DNA of 64,000 nucleotides from a virus. The DNA is taken from positions 157,816 through 221,815 of IMG/VR virus record IMGVR_UViG_3300030108_006260; one strand, written 5' to 3'. Below are positions 6,401-30,617 of the stretch, in pieces; position 1 is the first letter of the stretch, and each line of letters opens with the position of its first letter. The notes beneath the pieces are model-generated. The model did no database searches and was not told the DNA's origin. It saw only the letters and a list, made by a program, of their open reading frames with translations. The position numbers and the translations under genes are program-made.

Positions 6401-8517
6401 AGAATTGAAGATGCTTCTTCCTTAGAAGTGAGGGTGTGACGTATGTCAAGTACCTCTTTCTGTGCGGGATTTGAGGAAGAGGTAATACCGTCTGGGCGTC
6501 CTGATGACCCATTCTGGAAAGACGGAGGACTGGCTGCCCAAGTCTGTGTGTTCCTTCTGTGAACTAGAGAAACAGGTATAGCGTACACAACACCTGTAAG
6601 ACTAGGATCCTCCCCTCCTGCGTCCTCGTGGGGAAGCGTAGCTCGTTCCCATAACCCAGGATCTTCTGAAGAAAGAGTGTATCCTGCCGCAGTCATGGCG
6701 TCAGATGTGTCCATGGCAGATCCGACAGAAAAAGTGCGAACCCTTCCTAGCCACTGGGCAGATCTTAGGCCCATTCTGTTGTATCTAATAAGCTCGGAAG
6801 GTCCCCTGAACTGAGGATTGCCGTGTGGATGAATTGTCTTTTCTACTTCTACCACCACCAAGTCACGACGGCTACCCGTAGCTGGAGCAGAAGGGAGAAC
6901 CACAGAAATAGGGTTCTCAGTCCTTAAATCACTTCCTTTTACCCGTACAACACACGGAGAAAGAGTAATGCCACCGGCCGAGGGCACTAGCGGAGAAAAG
7001 GTGCTCTTGTAGAATCCGGAAGGACCCTTAGAAGAAGAAATAGAGGTAGAAAGAGAGGACTGCTCGCCTCCTACAGTGGACATCTCCTGAATACCCGCAC
7101 CTAGCTCTGCTCTAGGCGCAACGTCAAAAACATACCTGTCGTTGTTGTCGTCCGACCTTGTTGATAGCACGTAAGAAGAAGGTCCAGTCTCACTTAGTGT
7201 GCGTCTAATAAGAATGAGGGGGATGGCCCAGCTTACCCCGTCAACAGAAGTTACAGAAGAAGCAGACCACAACCTCTGATCATTCTGGGAAGCAGATGTA
7301 CCAAAGGGATTACCGTCAATATTAGTGACAGAGGGGGCTGCTAGTAGGATGTTGTTCAGTGAGTTCGAAGATACACCCGACTGTACCCCTATCTGCCACC
7401 TAGTGGCTACAAAAGACGAGTCGTATGCCTCGATAGATCCAAACCCTATATTTGGAGAGGTAAACTGCTCTAAAAGCTGTTCCAAGTTTGCTCGAAGCTG
7501 GGAATACGTAGAGGTCCCGCCTACGGTAGGATCATTAGGAAACGATTCGGAAGAAACAGAGCCAGGGATAACCTCTCGCCACACCTCCAAGTACACAACG
7601 TCATATCTACCTGCTGTAGGAGCAGACAGTGATACTTCAGTATAGGGGGTCTTGACAAGGTGACCGTTAACTATCGAGTGAAGAGGCCCTAGGTCTATAC
7701 GATCTGCGGTAGTTGATTGTACTACAATAGGAAGAGAAGAATCAGGTCCTCTGTGCGAGAACCCTCCTGCGAAACCGTACCCTCCCTGAAGGAAAGAGTC
7801 GTTGTTGGTAGATCCTATGATACCAGATCCGTTTAGTGCCCTACTTTGAATGGACGAGCTTTGCTGTGATACCTCCACTGCACTTGCTAAATCTGTAGCC
7901 CCTCCTACTGCGTTCCATGTTTCAGAAGAGGAATCCCACGCGTAAGGAGTGAGAGTGTCTAGTACTATACGTACGTCACCGTCCCTATTTCCTAGGTTGG
8001 GACCTGATGCAGAGATGGAGGGAAGGGACGCAAAATCTGCTACAGGAGACCTCCATCCGGACTTTCCTGCTTTCTCTGCCCAGTCACCGATGGAGTAGTC
8101 AATTACAACGCCAGGATCCTGAAGGGACGTGGCACCGAAAGGAACTTCAATTCTAGCAAATGCTACAAAATATTCCTTGCTTATAGACGTAAGAAAGGTA
8201 GTCTCAGGTACTACCTGGAGATTTGCGATAGAAGAAGTTAGAGATCTGTATTCTAGGTGAAGAATAAGGTAACTTACACGAGAGGGACCAGCAGCAGCAG
8301 GAGCAGGAACCGTACGTGTCTCATTAGAGTCAGATATGGCAACAATTCCATCGTACCCTGCGGCAACAAATGGAGCGATACCCATCGTAAGAGAAGTAGA
8401 CGAAGGACTCAAATGTCCTCCATCGAAAATACCTCTATCAACAATTCTAGCAAACCTGCTGTTCAAATCAGCAGTGCTATCGGAGTTACGGTAAATTAGT
8501 ACGGGTTTAATTGCCAC
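3436..8517 (-). CDS. Giant virion protein, 1693 aa (baseplate/fibre type)
   Basis: A very long, Ser/Gly/Thr/Val-rich, beta-strand-dominated protein with no membrane segment. It contains several lengthy beta domains joined by Ser/Pro-rich linkers. Size, composition and position between a collar-fibre-like protein and a smaller structural protein indicate a large baseplate or tail-fibre component. I do not recognise a named domain. The ATG at 8517 is preceded nine bases earlier by the stop of the upstream gene. It could be a baseplate-proximal fibre or a host-range determinant. Confidence 0.7.
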   Translation of the reverse strand: MAIKPVLIYRNSDSTADLNSRFARIVDRGIFDGGHLSPSSTSLTMGIAPFVAAGYDGIVAISDSNETRTVPAPAAAGPSRVSYLILHLEYRSLTSSIANLQVVPETTFLTSISKEYFVAFARIEVPFGATSLQDPGVVIDYSIGDWAEKAGKSGWRSPVADFASLPSISASGPNLGNRDGDVRIVLDTLTPYAWDSSSETWNAVGGATDLASAVEVSQQSSSIQSRALNGSGIIGSTNNDSFLQGGYGFAGGFSHRGPDSSLPIVVQSTTADRIDLGPLHSIVNGHLVKTPYTEVSLSAPTAGRYDVVYLEVWREVIPGSVSSESFPNDPTVGGTSTYSQLRANLEQLLEQFTSPNIGFGSIEAYDSSFVATRWQIGVQSGVSSNSLNNILLAAPSVTNIDGNPFGTSASQNDQRLWSASSVTSVDGVSWAIPLILIRRTLSETGPSSYVLSTRSDDNNDRYVFDVAPRAELGAGIQEMSTVGGEQSSLSTSISSSKGPSGFYKSTFSPLVPSAGGITLSPCVVRVKGSDLRTENPISVVLPSAPATGSRRDLVVVEVEKTIHPHGNPQFRGPSELIRYNRMGLRSAQWLGRVRTFSVGSAMDTSDAMTAAGYTLSSEDPGLWERATLPHEDAGGEDPSLTGVVYAIPVSLVHRRNTQTWAASPPSFQNGSSGRPDGITSSSNPAQKEVLDIRHTLTSKEEASSILEESRDLLYRGDLRTRMRESSLSSDVAGTQYLQVDRVASAPAAGTFTIPGAPNGSVTFWGDSDEAVLLSATFPVWNSGVAVTDGSSTPTFTWSGTPTEGFLTINAPPGYVLNLDNDRTNTLLGPGGVQVITHTVGTNTATDIPYAAAFSPGSISFDAEGNLASAASGGIAIPLPAGASSAGVVHVQVWARRPSRGRGPTYSNNGGMFEVADNVHRIDFFNGVSTVEVDSSPLVAQVTASPVGDQITITQADLFAALGGAGNKYASVASQLRMYGILDVSIQGSSLALPSGSPKITYVDLQNAAGLAQGFEQIVVSFDPGSVATPVTFTVAFDGDLINRWAIVSPFNRGVRGLYSWSTSAIRPTFVGGSSGASQVQPTRNPTALPSRNFLVPVRDSGYSGFFLGTSNGSEISSLSWGGSELMAYARNVTTSSPQWRLWTDPGLRDNTNIGGVNTITVGVKDALSDPLYTSGYSAFASFDYSGYPGFDFEVLLVSPCRVPLTAAQSLTVYYDMTPYQGLADAYPLQDKTTGTVLKVGDVDVHTMGTNMPWISPRSLSWDFRGEVVLAQDTGSPASRGQDLLQLRNSHGSAVLESSSTHDAGTRSIGALTRRLPTGGSVYGVSEAETLVENTLLFDRPATVSRVIHPEEARGDDVGALVGMEYSLGAWRAPSVADRYAYYPLIVPDGAYINGVTVRVGTATSASFELDLLNINPPSSSTVATATISTSSSDEEVRVYEFDGVGALKQSSNNYVLRIRSLTPGAEHFVYTVTVYYRDPSVPSSNSSRRKYSRLVRTEYEGQGAGSLLHTGAVLSNPWSAPDFATLESSFFANGDSSYGSVPRGKVSRYSLDLGVASASSSLGSFLYYVPLSDLEAQDSLSVLDRLGVYISWPFADSPRSRTLPSSFASSTQEVYGAHSPDTTSSSLSDSLFVGASFTYLIKDPSGLISLVVSHSILNSSSADRSSILRVRTGREAAIDAFYPVGRPLYTKDS

Positions 8518-23791: not shown

Positions 23792-24051
23792 AGAATCATA
23801 ACCTGAACGTTAGGGGAGTTGATTGACCCTATAGAGTGAGAGACTGATTTTCTTATACATAGCCATGTTTCATTTTTCATAAGTAAATCACTCTCACCAT
23901 AGTGAGCCTTTACAATAGGAGAAAACCACCGAATCAAATCATCTACTTTACCTTTGTATATGGAGGCATCTCCGTCGTCCCTCACAATAAGAAGGACGTG
24001 TTTTCCTTGAGACAAAGCTTTCCATATAATGTTGTATGCGTCGTCAGACAT
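23788..24051 (-). CDS. Small protein in recombination operon, 87 aa
   Basis: No family is recognised. An alpha/beta-looking sequence with a possible nucleotide-binding-like strand near the start (HVLLIVRDDGDASIY) and a basic middle, but no complete Walker motif. It overlaps the SbcD-like gene by eight bases and the UvsY-like gene by four. Probably part of the same recombination operon. Confidence 0.55.
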   Translation of the reverse strand: MSDDAYNIIWKALSQGKHVLLIVRDDGDASIYKGKVDDLIRWFSPIVKAHYGESDLLMKNETWLCIRKSVSHSIGSINSPNVQVMIL

Positions 24052-25078
24052 CTTGGAACGAAAGTAGTAAAGATTCTATTTCTTCTAGTGCCATATCCAT
24101 AACAGTACCTTCAGCACCCTGCTGTTTAACTCCATCGATAAGTAGCTGCTTAAGTGATCCGCTCATATCGAGGCTCAGTGAGCTTAGTGTCTTTTTGACC
24201 TCATACTTCACTACGTTTGTAGGAATATCCTCGGAAACCAAATCAGACTTACTGTCTAAAACTAACTTTACGTAAGCGTTTGAAGGAACACTGTCACCTA
24301 TTTTAGCTTTGACTAACTGGTTAGTATCAATAGGTATAAACTCAGGGGAGTCGGGGAAGTCAGTATCTACCAGTAGCACACCCTTAGGCCAATCACTGTC
24401 AAATCTAGTCTGGAGAGGACTACCTGGATAATAAGCACACGGACCTACCCTCTGCATCTTATGGATGTCACCTAGGGCCCAGTATGTTACATCAAGAGAC
24501 GGGTCAGGAGGAGACTCTCCCGTATCCATACGATAGTAATCTCCGGTAGAAAGCTTTATCTCTGTCTGAGAGCCACGAATAGTTTCGTGCGCAACCATAA
24601 CGAAGTTTTTTGCCCCAGTAGCTATGCTAGACTCATGGAAATCTATAACTGCTTTCCTAGATTCCTCAGGAAAGCATCCCTTATTGTGAAATAGTAAACA
24701 AAAGACAGTGTCATCTATCTGGTGATAAGTAGTACTGTCAACTATTACGGAGTTGGACAACCTCTCATGCTTGCACAACATACTAAGGTAGTTAAGAGCA
24801 GTATAGCCGCTGTGGTCTACCAGATCATGATTGCCAGGAATAACCAGTATGTTGTACCCAGCAGCGTCATAATCAAGTATTTTACGCTCTACAAGGTCCC
24901 TCTCTTCAGGGGAAGGGTCAGAAACATCAAAAATGTCTCCAGCAATGACCACAGTATTAACTCCTGCGTCTGCTGCTGTATCAAAAATCTGATCTAGGGC
25001 CTCCTCTTGTCTTTCGAGGAAGTTAGGCAAAAACCTAGACCCTCCTATGTGGAGGTCGCCTGTGTGTATGAACTTCAT
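24044..25078 (-). CDS. sbcD: SbcD/Mre11-type nuclease (T4 gp47-like)
   Basis: 344 residues with the full calcineurin-like phosphoesterase motif set in order: 'GDLHIGG' (residues 7-13), 'VVIAGDIFDV' (about 44-53), 'IPGNHDLVD' (about 79-87), a His in 'VAHETIRG' (about 163) and 'ALGDIHKM' (about 200-207). These bind two metal ions (usually Mn) and make up the Mre11/SbcD exonuclease-endonuclease. Normally it works with an SbcC/Rad50 ATPase (gp46), which is not encoded in this window. In T4 the pair resects DNA ends for recombination-dependent replication and degrades host DNA. The gene lies in the same run as the UvsX-like and UvsY-like genes. Confidence 0.9.
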   Translation of the reverse strand: MKFIHTGDLHIGGSRFLPNFLERQEEALDQIFDTAADAGVNTVVIAGDIFDVSDPSPEERDLVERKILDYDAAGYNILVIPGNHDLVDHSGYTALNYLSMLCKHERLSNSVIVDSTTYHQIDDTVFCLLFHNKGCFPEESRKAVIDFHESSIATGAKNFVMVAHETIRGSQTEIKLSTGDYYRMDTGESPPDPSLDVTYWALGDIHKMQRVGPCAYYPGSPLQTRFDSDWPKGVLLVDTDFPDSPEFIPIDTNQLVKAKIGDSVPSNAYVKLVLDSKSDLVSEDIPTNVVKYEVKKTLSSLSLDMSGSLKQLLIDGVKQQGAEGTVMDMALEEIESLLLSFQDV

Positions 25079-26187: not shown

Positions 26188-27498
26188 CTACACAGCAGTT
26201 ACTTCTTTTGCTTTAGTCTTTCTTTTACGCTTAGGGGTGCGATCACTACCCTCATTATCGCTTTCTTCCTCGTCAGAGGAAGAAGAGGAGTAATCTTTAG
26301 AAAAAGAGGAGTCACTAAACTGCTCGAATATGTTTTCCTCATCCTCTGACGCCTCAAGGTCTACCTCATCGTACAGAGATGCCCAGTCGTTTGCCTTAAA
26401 GAACAAGTCAAAAGCTTTACCTGAAATAAGCTGGCTCCTGCACAGCTCACGAAACTCATTTGTGGCAAATAAAGGAAGTATGTCCTTCTCATAGTGGTTT
26501 TTATTGTTCCATTCAAACTCACCAGGAACATCAAGAGATAGAGATCTATATTTTCCTGCCCTTACGAACTGACCAGTCATCTCAAGATATCCCTTTGTGT
26601 CTCGAACCCTCTCAAATCCACGACCAAAAGCTACACAAAGAGTGTCCTTTATATCCAAGAATGGAACAAATTGTTTATTCTTCTTGGTAGAGATATTGAT
26701 GAACCGCATTGAACGTCTTCTTTCTTCAAAGACCTTTCCTACAGCACTCATTCTAACCTGAAGATCGGGATAAAACCCTACAGCCTGTCCTCCCGGCTGG
26801 TACTCAGGGTTTCCGAATAACTGACCAGGGTTTAGGCGTAGCTGATTTGTAGCAAACCAGCTAACGTTTTTTCTTCCAAGCTTGGTCTTGATAAGCGGCA
26901 TATACTGAGAATGAACCGAAGCGCTTACGGCACGTCTACCATCAGTATCATCTATCTCATATGCCTCTGGCAACATAGCTGCCAAACTATCAACAATGAA
27001 TAGTGCCTGAGGCTTAGGTCTCGATCCGTCCTCATTAGGGTCGTAGTCAGGTAGAGCCCTCAAAAGCCTAGCCATCATTCGATAGGATGCCTCCCCCGTA
27101 GTGGGCTGGAAATAGTTAAAGTACGGGTTCTTTTTACCGTCGTTTGTTCTTATGCGAACACCTATGCTTCGCAGGTACTTAGAGTCAGCACTTGCTTCAT
27201 GATCAAAGACAAAAACAGGTACTTTCTCTTCTAAAGCTGATGCGATCAAATGGTAGCTCAAGGTGCTTTTTGCGGATCCCTGAGGTCCATAAGCAACAGT
27301 GAACTTACCCGGAGGAAGACCTCCTCCGGTAATAAGATCCATTATCAAAGATCCCATGGACAATGATCCAGCAACAAAGGATCCACGGTCCAAGTTAACA
27401 GGGGGATTGTCAAGACCGGGCCCCAGCCTTTCTGCTAAAGCAGCTAGCTCTATGGGGTCACTTACGAACTCTTGTTCTGGTTTTTTCTTTTTAGCCAT
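26188..27498 (-). CDS. UvsX/RecA-like recombinase, 436 aa
   Basis: The Walker A motif 'GPQGSAKST' lies near residues 70-78, preceded by 'ITGGGLPPGKFTVAYG', which is the standard RecA/UvsX entry. Next come 'VFVFDHEASADSKYLRSIGV' (RecA: the 'D.E.a.dp.ya...Gv' segment) and a Walker B-like 'ALFIVDSLAAML' near 165-176. 'FATNQLRLNPGQLFGNPEYQPGG' corresponds to the L1/L2 loop region. It forms filaments on ssDNA and performs strand exchange during recombination-dependent replication. The C-terminal 60 residues are acidic and Ser-rich and then Lys-rich (RKRKTKAK), an extension that may modulate DNA binding. It starts just after the TopA-like gene. Confidence 0.85.
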   Translation of the reverse strand: MAKKKKPEQEFVSDPIELAALAERLGPGLDNPPVNLDRGSFVAGSLSMGSLIMDLITGGGLPPGKFTVAYGPQGSAKSTLSYHLIASALEEKVPVFVFDHEASADSKYLRSIGVRIRTNDGKKNPYFNYFQPTTGEASYRMMARLLRALPDYDPNEDGSRPKPQALFIVDSLAAMLPEAYEIDDTDGRRAVSASVHSQYMPLIKTKLGRKNVSWFATNQLRLNPGQLFGNPEYQPGGQAVGFYPDLQVRMSAVGKVFEERRRSMRFINISTKKNKQFVPFLDIKDTLCVAFGRGFERVRDTKGYLEMTGQFVRAGKYRSLSLDVPGEFEWNNKNHYEKDILPLFATNEFRELCRSQLISGKAFDLFFKANDWASLYDEVDLEASEDEENIFEQFSDSSFSKDYSSSSSDEEESDNEGSDRTPKRKRKTKAKEVTAV

Positions 27499-27499
27499 C

Positions 27500-29212
27500 T
27501 TATGATTCTTTTACACTTTCAGAAGGAAGTATTCGGCCCCTACTGTCGAAGCTAACGTCACAGGACCATTTGTTAGAAGGAGAATATGCTCTGGGGTAAG
27601 GGTCAACCCAAACCCTAAGTGGTTCATTTGAGGGAGACTTAAATGATGGCCGGAGAAAAGAAGATCTTATCTTTTTCAGGTAAGGGGAAAACATAGAAAA
27701 CAAGTAAGAAGAGAAATCCACGTACGATAGTTCTCCAAGAAGTACCCTATCCAACTCCTCTTCTATCTCTGCATGAAAATCAGGGTCTATAAAATCAGGA
27801 AACACCTGTCTAAGAAATGTAACACATGCCTCTCCTTTAGGAGTTATTTGTATCAATCCTCTGGACATGGTCACCATGTCAAACTCTACTAGGGAATCTA
27901 ATATAATAGAAACGTTGGACGGCCTTAGAATAAGGGAAGAGTCTAAGAAACCTACGACGTCAGATAGGGACGTACCAAACTTATAAGGAGTCTTAGTGTG
28001 TAGAGAAGACTCTAATATTCCCGTCTCTTCACAAGAAACAGGTATACTAGGTGAGCTAAACAAGAAGCTGCTTACCTTGTGCCACCCCGGCTTTACAAGC
28101 TCAGTGCTAGTAGCCTCCACAATTAGGTCGCTACCTTCTAAAGGTCTATAGGTACAGATGTTTGTCTGAGTAATACTGGTGACCGACTGAGACGCGAGGG
28201 CCCTAAACCATATGGAAGCGTATACGGTTCTGAGGTCACCCTTTATGCCTGAGGAAGAAGGAGTGATGGAAGGGTCTAAGGGAAATAATCCAAAGTATCT
28301 ATCGGATGCATCTCCTATGAAGTCAGCACCAGCGGTTTTGGTTATGAAAGACACTCCCTTATCAAAGGACTGAATGGACGTTTCTTTTGTTTCAAAGTCA
28401 GAGTTACCTACCAACTTACGTGTCATGAGAGACTCTAACAGACCTGCACTATATGAAGGAGAAAATCCGTACCTTGATGAAAGGAACGAGCATAGAGAAA
28501 CTAGCCCAAAGCAGGAGGGAGGATCCTCTGCACTCTTTACTTCTTGGTACTCAGGTGTACATGAGGACAATAATTCCATGGCTCTCTCTGCCTTATCCCT
28601 ATCAGGGATAGGAGTAGATTCGGCCAAAGCGCCACTCTCAAGCAAAGAGGATATCTGATAGTCCACCGTAGACCTTGATAGTCTGGTGTTCTTGGCTAAG
28701 ATAGAAAGAACTACACCGCTGTGTCTTTCCAGGGCAACAGTGCCTATCCTGGAGGAGACTTCTTTAGAGGTCACAACAGAGGATAGATTCTCAACAAGAC
28801 GACAAGACAGATAGTATGAAACCAAGGAGGTAGAGACGTCTATATTCTCATAAGAGAGACCAGAAGAAAGGTCTCCCAATTTTATTCTGTAGAAGGACGC
28901 ACCACACTTGTTAGCCATAGATTCTACCCTAGAACTTATGAACTCTCCTAGGGGAGACCTATAAAAAGCTGAGTAGACTTTATCCCCTTCCGAGAAGGCG
29001 GAGGATAATCTAGAAAAAACACTAGAGTTAAGTATGCCTATCTTGGGCAGGAAGGATTTATCCTCTATTTTAAATGGCATTCCATCAGAATGTAATCCCT
29101 CAAAAACACCATCTGTAGATAAAACAGACCATGAAGAAGGGTCCTCAAAGCGATCTATACAAGAGACTATTAAAGATGCTCTGGAGATGTTCTCTACTAC
29201 TATGTAGTTCAC
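27500..29212 (-). CDS. Degenerate topoisomerase IA (TopA)-like protein without active-site residues
   Basis: 570 residues. The TopA order can be followed end to end. 'YIVVENISRASLI' (3-15) stands for the Toprim start 'lvIVESpaKa'. 'DKVYSAFYRSPLGEFI' (77-92) stands for 'DeVylAtDpDREGEAI'. 'RIGTVALERH' (155-164) stands for the 'SaGRVQ' strand. 'LESLMTRKLVGNSDFET' (259-275) replaces the 'GLITYMRTDS' tyrosine motif. 'VYASIWFRALASQ' (330-342), 'KPGWHKV' (374-380), 'RPSNVSIILDSL' (430-441, for 'GRPSTYAsIi') and 'EIEEELDRVLLGEL' (482-495) complete it. The three Toprim acidic ligands are Tyr, Ser and Leu (84, 86, 88), and the catalytic Tyr position is Asn270. No zinc ribbon follows. It should bind DNA rather than relax it. 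It overlaps the thioredoxin-like gene by four bases. Confidence 0.65.
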   Translation of the reverse strand: MNYIVVENISRASLIVSCIDRFEDPSSWSVLSTDGVFEGLHSDGMPFKIEDKSFLPKIGILNSSVFSRLSSAFSEGDKVYSAFYRSPLGEFISSRVESMANKCGASFYRIKLGDLSSGLSYENIDVSTSLVSYYLSCRLVENLSSVVTSKEVSSRIGTVALERHSGVVLSILAKNTRLSRSTVDYQISSLLESGALAESTPIPDRDKAERAMELLSSCTPEYQEVKSAEDPPSCFGLVSLCSFLSSRYGFSPSYSAGLLESLMTRKLVGNSDFETKETSIQSFDKGVSFITKTAGADFIGDASDRYFGLFPLDPSITPSSSGIKGDLRTVYASIWFRALASQSVTSITQTNICTYRPLEGSDLIVEATSTELVKPGWHKVSSFLFSSPSIPVSCEETGILESSLHTKTPYKFGTSLSDVVGFLDSSLILRPSNVSIILDSLVEFDMVTMSRGLIQITPKGEACVTFLRQVFPDFIDPDFHAEIEEELDRVLLGELSYVDFSSYLFSMFSPYLKKIRSSFLRPSFKSPSNEPLRVWVDPYPRAYSPSNKWSCDVSFDSRGRILPSESVKES

Positions 29213-29526
29213 GATACCTCCATAAGAGCCGATTCTGCAATCGAGGACGTAAGAATACCTTCTGACTTGAACTGTAGGTGACCTCCCCTAAATATACGTA
29301 GCTGGGGTACACGGACGCAACTAGTCTCTGGCAAACTGGATCCAAGCTCACTTGCTTCAGTAGACGCTACTAAATATCCAAGACCTGAAAATCTAGATTC
29401 GAACAAACTAAGAAGTGACAAAGACCTAGAACTCATAGAGTCGCCTGGTGTTACTAGTAGTAAAACTAAGGGTGTTTTAAGTCTAACCAGAGCTGACGCT
29501 GAATCGTAAGTTAATTTGGTGATCAT
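29209..29526 (-). CDS. Thioredoxin-fold protein lacking the CXXC active site
   Basis: 105 residues following the thioredoxin pattern throughout: a first strand 'PLVLLLVTPGDSMSSRS' (19-35), then the helix 'LSLLSLFESRFS', then 'VPQLRIFRGGHLQFKSEG' (73-90) with the cis-Pro at Pro74 and the 'lF.nG......G' hairpin. Where thioredoxin has A-P-W-C-G-P-C, this protein reads T-P-G-D-S-M-S (26-32), so neither catalytic cysteine is present; its only Cys is residue 70. It cannot be a normal dithiol reductase. Thioredoxin folds can be structural subunits (E. coli thioredoxin clamps T7 DNA polymerase). It is coupled to the TopA-like gene and follows a strong terminator. Confidence 0.6.
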   Translation of the reverse strand: MITKLTYDSASALVRLKTPLVLLLVTPGDSMSSRSLSLLSLFESRFSGLGYLVASTEASELGSSLPETSCVRVPQLRIFRGGHLQFKSEGILTSSIAESALMEVS

Positions 29527-29582: not shown

Positions 29583-30617
29583 TTACAAATCGTCAAAGTC
29601 ATCGAAGTCATCGTCGAAGTCGTCATCCATGTCGTCGACGGGAGGACTCTTTTTCTTTGTCTTCTTGGGAGGAGTATCCTCCTCATCATCGTCGTCGAAG
29701 TCGTCGAAGTCATCATCGTCGTCTTCTTCTACAGGTTCGACCTTTTTAGGCTTTCGCCTCTTAGGTGAAGGAGGAACATCCTCTTCATCGTCCTCGTCGT
29801 CATCGTCCTCGTCGTCATCCTCTGGTTCAGGTTCAGGCTTTTTAGCCTTTCTCTTCTTCTTGGGGGATTTTTTAGCAGGAACGTCGTCGTCGTCATCATC
29901 ATCTTCGTCATCAACAGAAACAGATGCCTTCTTCTTACTTGGAAGAACTACCGAAGAGTCAGGGCCCCCAGAAGAGTCCTCTCCTTCGAAGTAACCGTGG
30001 CGACGCAAATCCATTCTAATTTTATCAAGGTCAGGCTCCAGCCAGTACTCGCTGAAGTCAACTACCTCTAGGGACAGTTCGCTCTCATCAAGAGGAGCCC
30101 TATCACCCTTCTGTACTTGCCACTCGATCCCACCTCTCTTTTTAGAGTTCTGCTTCATAAGATGAATGTCGCATCCATTTTTCTTATGGCTGACAGAATA
30201 AGGTGTTCCCTTGACAGAGTTTAGTTTCTTTAGGTCAACAAGCTGCCTCATGACAGTCGGGGAAATGTCTAGTGCTACCATAGGATCTGATGTACCTGAG
30301 CCCTGGGCCTCTCTGTCGATAGCATTCATCATGTATCGAACAGAAGGACGCATGCCAAGTTCACAACAAGGACATCCTCCCTTTTTAGAGGGGGATTCTG
30401 TCTCTTCGTCCCAGTTGTTGCAGTCTACGGGGTATCTCTTGATCTGACCGTCTTTGTTCTTGAACTCGATCCAATGCTGTGCGTAAGAAAAGACTCCTCC
30501 TACTACACGGAAGGTGTAGAACTCGTCTTTCTTAGGCATCTGAGCAATGTTAATGTCTTGCTTCCAGTTGTGGTCCTTTGACCGTGGTTTAACATCATCG
30601 AAATCTTTTAGTGCCAT
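29583..30617 (-). CDS. gp32-like single-stranded DNA-binding protein with block-charged tail
   Basis: 344 residues. The N-terminal 200 residues resemble phage gp32/ssb proteins: a zinc-type 'GGCPCCELG' near residue 80 and an OB-like part with 'EFYTFRVVGG'. The last 120 residues alternate acidic blocks (runs of Asp/Glu) with basic blocks (KKSPKKKRKAKK, SPKRRKPKK, KKTKKK) four times and end in 'DDFDDL'. An acidic C-terminal tip is the usual docking site for partner proteins. The tail is much longer than normal and its DNA is low-complexity (tcgtcgtcatc-like), so length may vary. It starts the transcription unit after the sigma-like gene and is followed by a strong terminator. Confidence 0.75.
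   Translation of the reverse strand: MALKDFDDVKPRSKDHNWKQDINIAQMPKKDEFYTFRVVGGVFSYAQHWIEFKNKDGQIKRYPVDCNNWDEETESPSKKGGCPCCELGMRPSVRYMMNAIDREAQGSGTSDPMVALDISPTVMRQLVDLKKLNSVKGTPYSVSHKKNGCDIHLMKQNSKKRGGIEWQVQKGDRAPLDESELSLEVVDFSEYWLEPDLDKIRMDLRRHGYFEGEDSSGGPDSSVVLPSKKKASVSVDDEDDDDDDDVPAKKSPKKKRKAKKPEPEPEDDDEDDDDEDDEEDVPPSPKRRKPKKVEPVEEDDDDDFDDFDDDDEEDTPPKKTKKKSPPVDDMDDDFDDDFDDFDDL

Follow-up and report, generated by a model that had tools for sequence, protein, structure and literature searches.

The window analyzed here, a 64-kb stretch of a 240-kb IMG/VR viral record, carries a gene on its minus strand (27500..29212, stop codon included) for a 570-amino-acid protein that is a type IA topoisomerase homologue by its PF01131 match, AlphaFold2 model, and structure matches, and that should be a pseudo-enzyme by its active-site residues. 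We favor, with a probability of roughly 55%, the reading that this pseudo-topoisomerase has been retained as a structural component of the replication and recombination gene cluster in which it sits, a role suggested by its genomic setting. Few DNA enzymes are as conserved as the type IA topoisomerases, and our searches of the open-access literature turned up no account of a catalytically dead family among them.

The independent evidence for homology is the sequence-profile match. The window protein scored 60.7 bits against PF01131 (Topoisom_bac), above the gathering cut-off of 35.1 (E=1.7e-16), and phmmer matched it to TopA chains in the PDB with E values of 6e-5 to 2e-3. It also matched TIGR01051 (E=2e-12), but its score of 46.9 against an equivalog cut-off of 456.4 places it outside the equivalog. 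Of the two profiles proposed as a check in the original prediction, only PF01131 was matched; the Toprim model, PF01751, stayed below threshold in the profile search, and the Toprim fold is visible only in the predicted model and through relatives. The AlphaFold2 model (mean pLDDT 88.5, pTM 0.82) is not independent of homology because its 42-row input alignment included TopA rows. When that model was used in Foldseek, the best solved structures were all type IA topoisomerases (E down to 2e-31), and the TopA enzymes of E. coli, M. tuberculosis, and S. mutans aligned over 484 to 549 residues at a Z score of about 26; across the TopA matches, Z ran from 24 to 27 over 482 to 552 residues. Chance resemblance to TopA is ruled out by the PF01131 match, the confident fold, and this Z score. 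Sequence and predicted multidomain type IA core together confirm the window protein as a full-length homologue with similarity to TopA well above chance, as had been predicted. The TopA signatures had been followed from residue 3 to about 500; the similarity held up, and the end point moved, since homology reaches the C terminus at residue 570.

The gene has a GTG start and a single open frame over 570 codons, and that frame, with collinear homology over residues 1 to 570, rules out a sequencing or frameshift artifact. A probable ribosome-binding site, GGAGG (29217..29221, minus strand), read from the sequence, lies 4 bases upstream of the GTG. The gene overlaps the stop of the preceding thioredoxin-fold gene by 4 bases, and the UvsX gene starts 1 base past its own stop. 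At the C terminus, residues 521 to 570 (27503..27652, minus strand) form a ribbon that lacks the zinc-ribbon cysteine pairs and is the best-conserved part of clade 1, at 35 to 46% identity. The zinc-ribbon cysteines are still present in homologues from contigs L032, L033, and L009. Unlike E. coli TopA, the window protein has no long C-terminal region.

The neighboring genes on the same strand encode a UvsX/RecA-family recombinase (26188..27498; PF00154, E=1.2e-25; phrog_97, E=2.3e-42), a single-strand DNA-binding-like protein (SSB) with an acidic tail (29583..30617; phrog_15004, E=1.2e-21), and an SbcD-like nuclease (24044..25078; phrog_100, E=3.2e-30) that synteny makes a member of the conserved cluster. 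The placement beside UvsX and SSB genes, pointed out in the original prediction, is real and recurs in six further large viral contigs, L002 (424 kb), L007 (392 kb), L029 (95 kb), L009 (133 kb), L032 (68 kb), and L033 (153 kb), each with a syntenic homologue between the two genes. The shared order is sigma factor, SSB-like, thioredoxin-like, topoisomerase-like, UvsX, and SbcD. The family was reached mostly via the neighboring UvsX of the window; using the window protein itself as the query against viral contigs gave no match, megablast against phages gave none either, a two-member profile found no relatives in the bacterial genomes scanned, and an extra scan for clade 2 members returned only those already in hand. 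Matches by tblastn in a "phages" collection, labeled Listeria, Acinetobacter, Enterococcus, and Microcystis, were rejected as kin, as those aligned have intact TopA active sites. Several of them look bacterial or cyanobacterial by their neighbors, and they were used only as intact TopA references. Two such records, CAKLQH020000005 and CAKLQH020000051 (L024 and L025, "Acinetobacter phage MD-2021a"), carry uup, topA, and rep along with conjugal transfer and streptomycin-resistance genes and are probably bacterial contigs rather than phage.

In a tree with 36 bacterial TopAs, the phage proteins formed one clade (support, 100/100), with the window gene on the longest branch in the family; because branches are long, the inner order of the phage proteins and the donor are unsure. 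In the distant contigs L035 to L039, UvsX directly follows SSB with neither a topoisomerase-like nor a thioredoxin gene between them, and in L034, where about 600 bases separate SSB and UvsX, neither gene was detected. The contiguity of SSB and UvsX in these distant relatives indicates that the ancestor of this clade probably acquired the thioredoxin and topoisomerase genes by insertion.

Catalytic residues were read against E. coli TopA as the ruler, in multiple alignments that included the six homologues. The original prediction had the Toprim DxDxE replaced by Y-R-S-P-L and the active-site Tyr by Asn, and both substitutions were read correctly. In the window protein, FYRSPLGE lies opposite E. 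coli TDLDREGE, so that residues 84 to 88 (28949..28963, minus strand) carry D111→Y84, D113→S86, and E115→L88 next to an invariant G89-E90. An ungapped alignment of L262 to E274 with the six homologues and E. coli TopA places Asn270 (28403..28405, minus strand) at the position of the catalytic Tyr319. The former active-site segment (28391..28429, minus strand) reads LMTRKLVGNSDFE, against LYEAGYITYMRTD in E. coli, and within it VGNSDFE stands for ITYMRTD, giving Y319→N270, R321→D272, T322→F273, and D323→E274. The His at 365 is also gone, and the GRPS-type segment reads LRPS. Retained are Glu7 (29192..29194, minus strand; E. coli E9) and Arg109 (28886..28888, minus strand; E. coli R136), both kept in all seven phage members, and the Arg195 equivalent. 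The catalytic Tyr, the Toprim triad, and R321, which mark a working type IA enzyme, are all absent. With the Tyr, the Toprim acids, R321, D323, and H365 lost, the known chemistry should not allow relaxation, and on these residues the window protein should form no phosphotyrosine bond and bind no Toprim metal. An active topoisomerase with a relocated nucleophile, such as Tyr84 at the D111 position, would draw on that Tyr and on the remaining E9 and R136 equivalents; however, a Tyr at this position is unique to the window member, no metal ligand of the triad is left, and R321 has become Asp, and we find this idea barely credible.

Catalytic sites are altered in all seven phage members to differing degrees, and the window copy is the most eroded. 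The His at 365 is absent from all six syntenic relatives. The L032 and L033 proteins keep the Toprim triad and Tyr319 but show R321K, D323N, and Gly at 365, and the L009 protein has D111N, Y319F, R321K, and D323N. The L007 protein (D113S and R321Y) and the L002 protein (D111L, R321Y, and D323Q) keep Tyr319 and Glu9; the L029 protein has D113S, R321M, T322V, and D323S. Since the window and L009 proteins belong to different clades, the replacements of Tyr319 were independent. This series suggests that catalysis was lost in stages and that something other than untangling DNA accounts for the retention of the protein. The clade 2 members (L009:6089-7927, L032:6176-8005, and L033:6179-7984) have an active-site motif, (Y/F)(Y/F)KTNR...NR.FAE, with Tyr at 319, 320, or both, which may mark an altered yet still selected chemistry.

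E. coli TopA mutants with D111N, or with an aromatic side chain in place of R321, still cleave but cannot reseal, and they are lethal (PMC7587558). By analogy, some relatives might trap DNA, and the window member would not be among them. A family of DNA-trapping or nicking enzymes, in which lasting covalent complexes might arise in those relatives that combine Tyr319 with R321Y, would fit those mutants, the L007 and L002 residues, and the KTNR motif and aromatic pair at 319/320 of clade 2, whose active-site domain is its best-conserved part. Nonetheless, positions 319 and 320 of the window protein both lack Tyr and its Toprim acids are all gone, which means that such chemistry fails to explain it and would at best apply to some relatives; the L009 protein has Phe at 319 (Tyr at 320). 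We consider this reading very improbable. As E. coli mutants at some of the altered residues are lethal (PMC7587558), the natural series offers a test of the loss of chemistry without toxicity. Its variants, whose active sites range from nearly complete to empty, could also be used to ask what the TopA ring can do without cutting.

Conservation has shifted within the protein as well. Bacterial TopAs are best conserved in D3, the active-site segment, and in D4a, with a D3/mean ratio of 1.11. Clade 1 reverses this, with D3 the least conserved domain (0.80), while clade 2 still has D3 as the best conserved (1.34). Between the window and L007 proteins, identity is 15% in D3 versus 46% in the C-terminal ribbon. 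The family includes no close relative of the window gene, and silent sites are near saturation. Constraint was read from codon-position agreement. Against clade 1 relatives, codon positions 1 and 2 lay about 6 and 12 to 16 standard deviations over the shuffled null, versus only 1.7 to 3.6 for position 3. By this measure of its coding sequence, the window protein has been selected for much of its history; the signal is one of past constraint and is compatible with recent relaxation. Residues conserved in clade 1 but rare or absent in TopA, such as H378, L520-R521-P522, and W549, are, with the conserved ribbon, candidate contact sites.

These data bear on the main rival reading, in which a dispensable topoisomerase gene is slowly decaying and has no present role, catalysis being redundant given a type IIA enzyme. 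Indeed, the record that contains the window encodes a GyrB-type subunit (ATPase and Toprim domains) and a GyrA-type subunit, as do the other large clade 1 records; these genes were not seen in shorter contigs, which may be fragments. A second, active type IA gene was not found in the window's record, which is possibly incomplete. The window gene has the family's longest branch and retains only 29 of 96 near-invariant bacterial TopA residues, compared with 40 to 52 in relatives. The 388-kb contig L031 has the cluster without the topoisomerase-like gene; its UvsX falls inside clade 1, and thus the gene was probably lost there and is dispensable at least in L031. The site of the missing gene in L031 holds a 106-amino-acid open reading frame (7653-7973, plus strand) with no clear Pfam match. 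Slow decay is, however, harder to reconcile with a 570-codon open frame that follows a strong ribosome-binding site and is tightly coupled to its neighbors, with a confident full predicted fold, with the clade-specific residues, and with the constraint at codon positions 1 and 2, itself compatible with recent relaxation. We judge decay rather unlikely, though a serious contender.

The gene immediately upstream (29209..29526, minus strand) encodes a 105-amino-acid protein whose AlphaFold2 model (pLDDT 92.6) has a predicted thioredoxin fold, with a Z score of 15 and a root mean square deviation of 2.0 over 102 residues to thioredoxins. The alignment shows CxxC in none of the eight clade members, with MSSR in the window and CxRA-, CxRS-, or SxRA-like sequences in the others. 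A VRVPQLR-type motif is kept in all eight, including that of L031, which has no topoisomerase-like gene. Judged by its sequence, this protein is a second pseudo-enzyme beside the topoisomerase-like one. The two proteins (27500-29526, minus strand) are serine rich, at 18 to 19% versus 7 to 11% in neighboring genes. The phage also encodes a family A DNA polymerase, and a link between that polymerase and the thioredoxin-like protein is, by analogy, a lead only. The polymerase open reading frame, outside the window (L132:862-5010, minus strand, equivalent to G000:C1:123861-128009), is 1,382 amino acids long, compared with 950 to 967 in relatives, and has an in-frame insertion of ∼430 amino acids that looks intein-like by eye (CLPAGTRI...VVHN|S). 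Its N terminus, also by eye, resembles uracil-DNA glycosylase.

The original prediction further proposed a DNA-binding scaffold or partner evolved from a topoisomerase. Descent from a type IA enzyme is borne out; the DNA-binding half of the proposal is weakened. At a net charge of −15 and a pI of 5.0, the window protein is acidic, compared with +5 and 8.8 for the E. coli 67-kDa core. Inspection of DNA-contact and catalytic-site positions showed only some of them retained (R169, R195, R493, and S495), and the equivalents of R168, R173, R321, and R507 are gone. This charge and these losses make DNA binding by the old route doubtful, and from its residues binding looks weakened. The same acidity, together with the missing C-terminal region of E. 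coli TopA and the embedding of the gene in the SSB-UvsX cluster, speaks against a decoy of host topoisomerase I that would engage and block TopA partners or DNA sites. A decoy would be consistent with a full predicted TopA core shape without activity residues. A jumbo-phage review states that nucleus-forming phages import host-derived topoisomerase I into their nucleus (PMC13282480), which means that host TopA matters to some jumbo phages and lends the decoy some relevance; we nevertheless consider it improbable.

In the structural role that we favor, an ancestral phage, from which a clade of large phages descends, would have acquired a bacterial-type topoisomerase I gene, placed next to the gene for the thioredoxin fold in the interval from SSB to UvsX. 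Catalysis would then have been lost stepwise with the fold retained, topoisomerase activity probably coming from the phage's own type IIA enzyme. The TopA-shaped ring would dock in an SSB/UvsX recombination-replication complex, possibly by way of its conserved ribbon at the C terminus and together with the thioredoxin-like neighbor, itself inactivated. The shared gene order speaks for docking, although synteny by itself does not demonstrate that proteins are physical partners; it is from gene order that we infer a partner role toward a polymerase or recombinase. The window protein is thereby a candidate accessory factor for phage recombination. More tentatively, topoisomerase I and thioredoxin may both have been turned into a noncatalytic two-protein SSB-UvsX accessory, with the stages of conversion visible in living relatives; such an accessory might act in loading or as a clamp, in a part akin to that of T4 UvsY.

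Compared with bacterial TopA (PF01131 and TIGR01051; E. coli 1ECL and 4RUL), the window protein shares the core fold, domain order, GRPS-type segment, ribbon position, and the Glu9, Arg136, and Arg195 equivalents. It differs in lacking the catalytic Tyr, the Toprim acids, R321/D323/H365, and the zinc-ribbon cysteine pairs, in being acidic, and in scoring far under the TIGR01051 equivalog cut-off. Topoisomerase III and reverse gyrase share the core fold (Z about 18 to 24), but the window protein has no helicase domain and is closer in sequence to TopA. In the TopoIII-RMI system of RecQ-topoisomerase complexes, a type IA protein acts alongside recombinases (PMC8813930); TopoIII, however, works as a topoisomerase, and the phage protein lacks the residues for that. 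The processivity factor of T7 DNA polymerase is thioredoxin, in a structural role independent of redox chemistry (PMC3997047). The neighbor in the window likewise has a thioredoxin fold in a phage replication setting, but it is phage encoded and has lost CxxC, and its possible tie to the phage family A polymerase is a lead.
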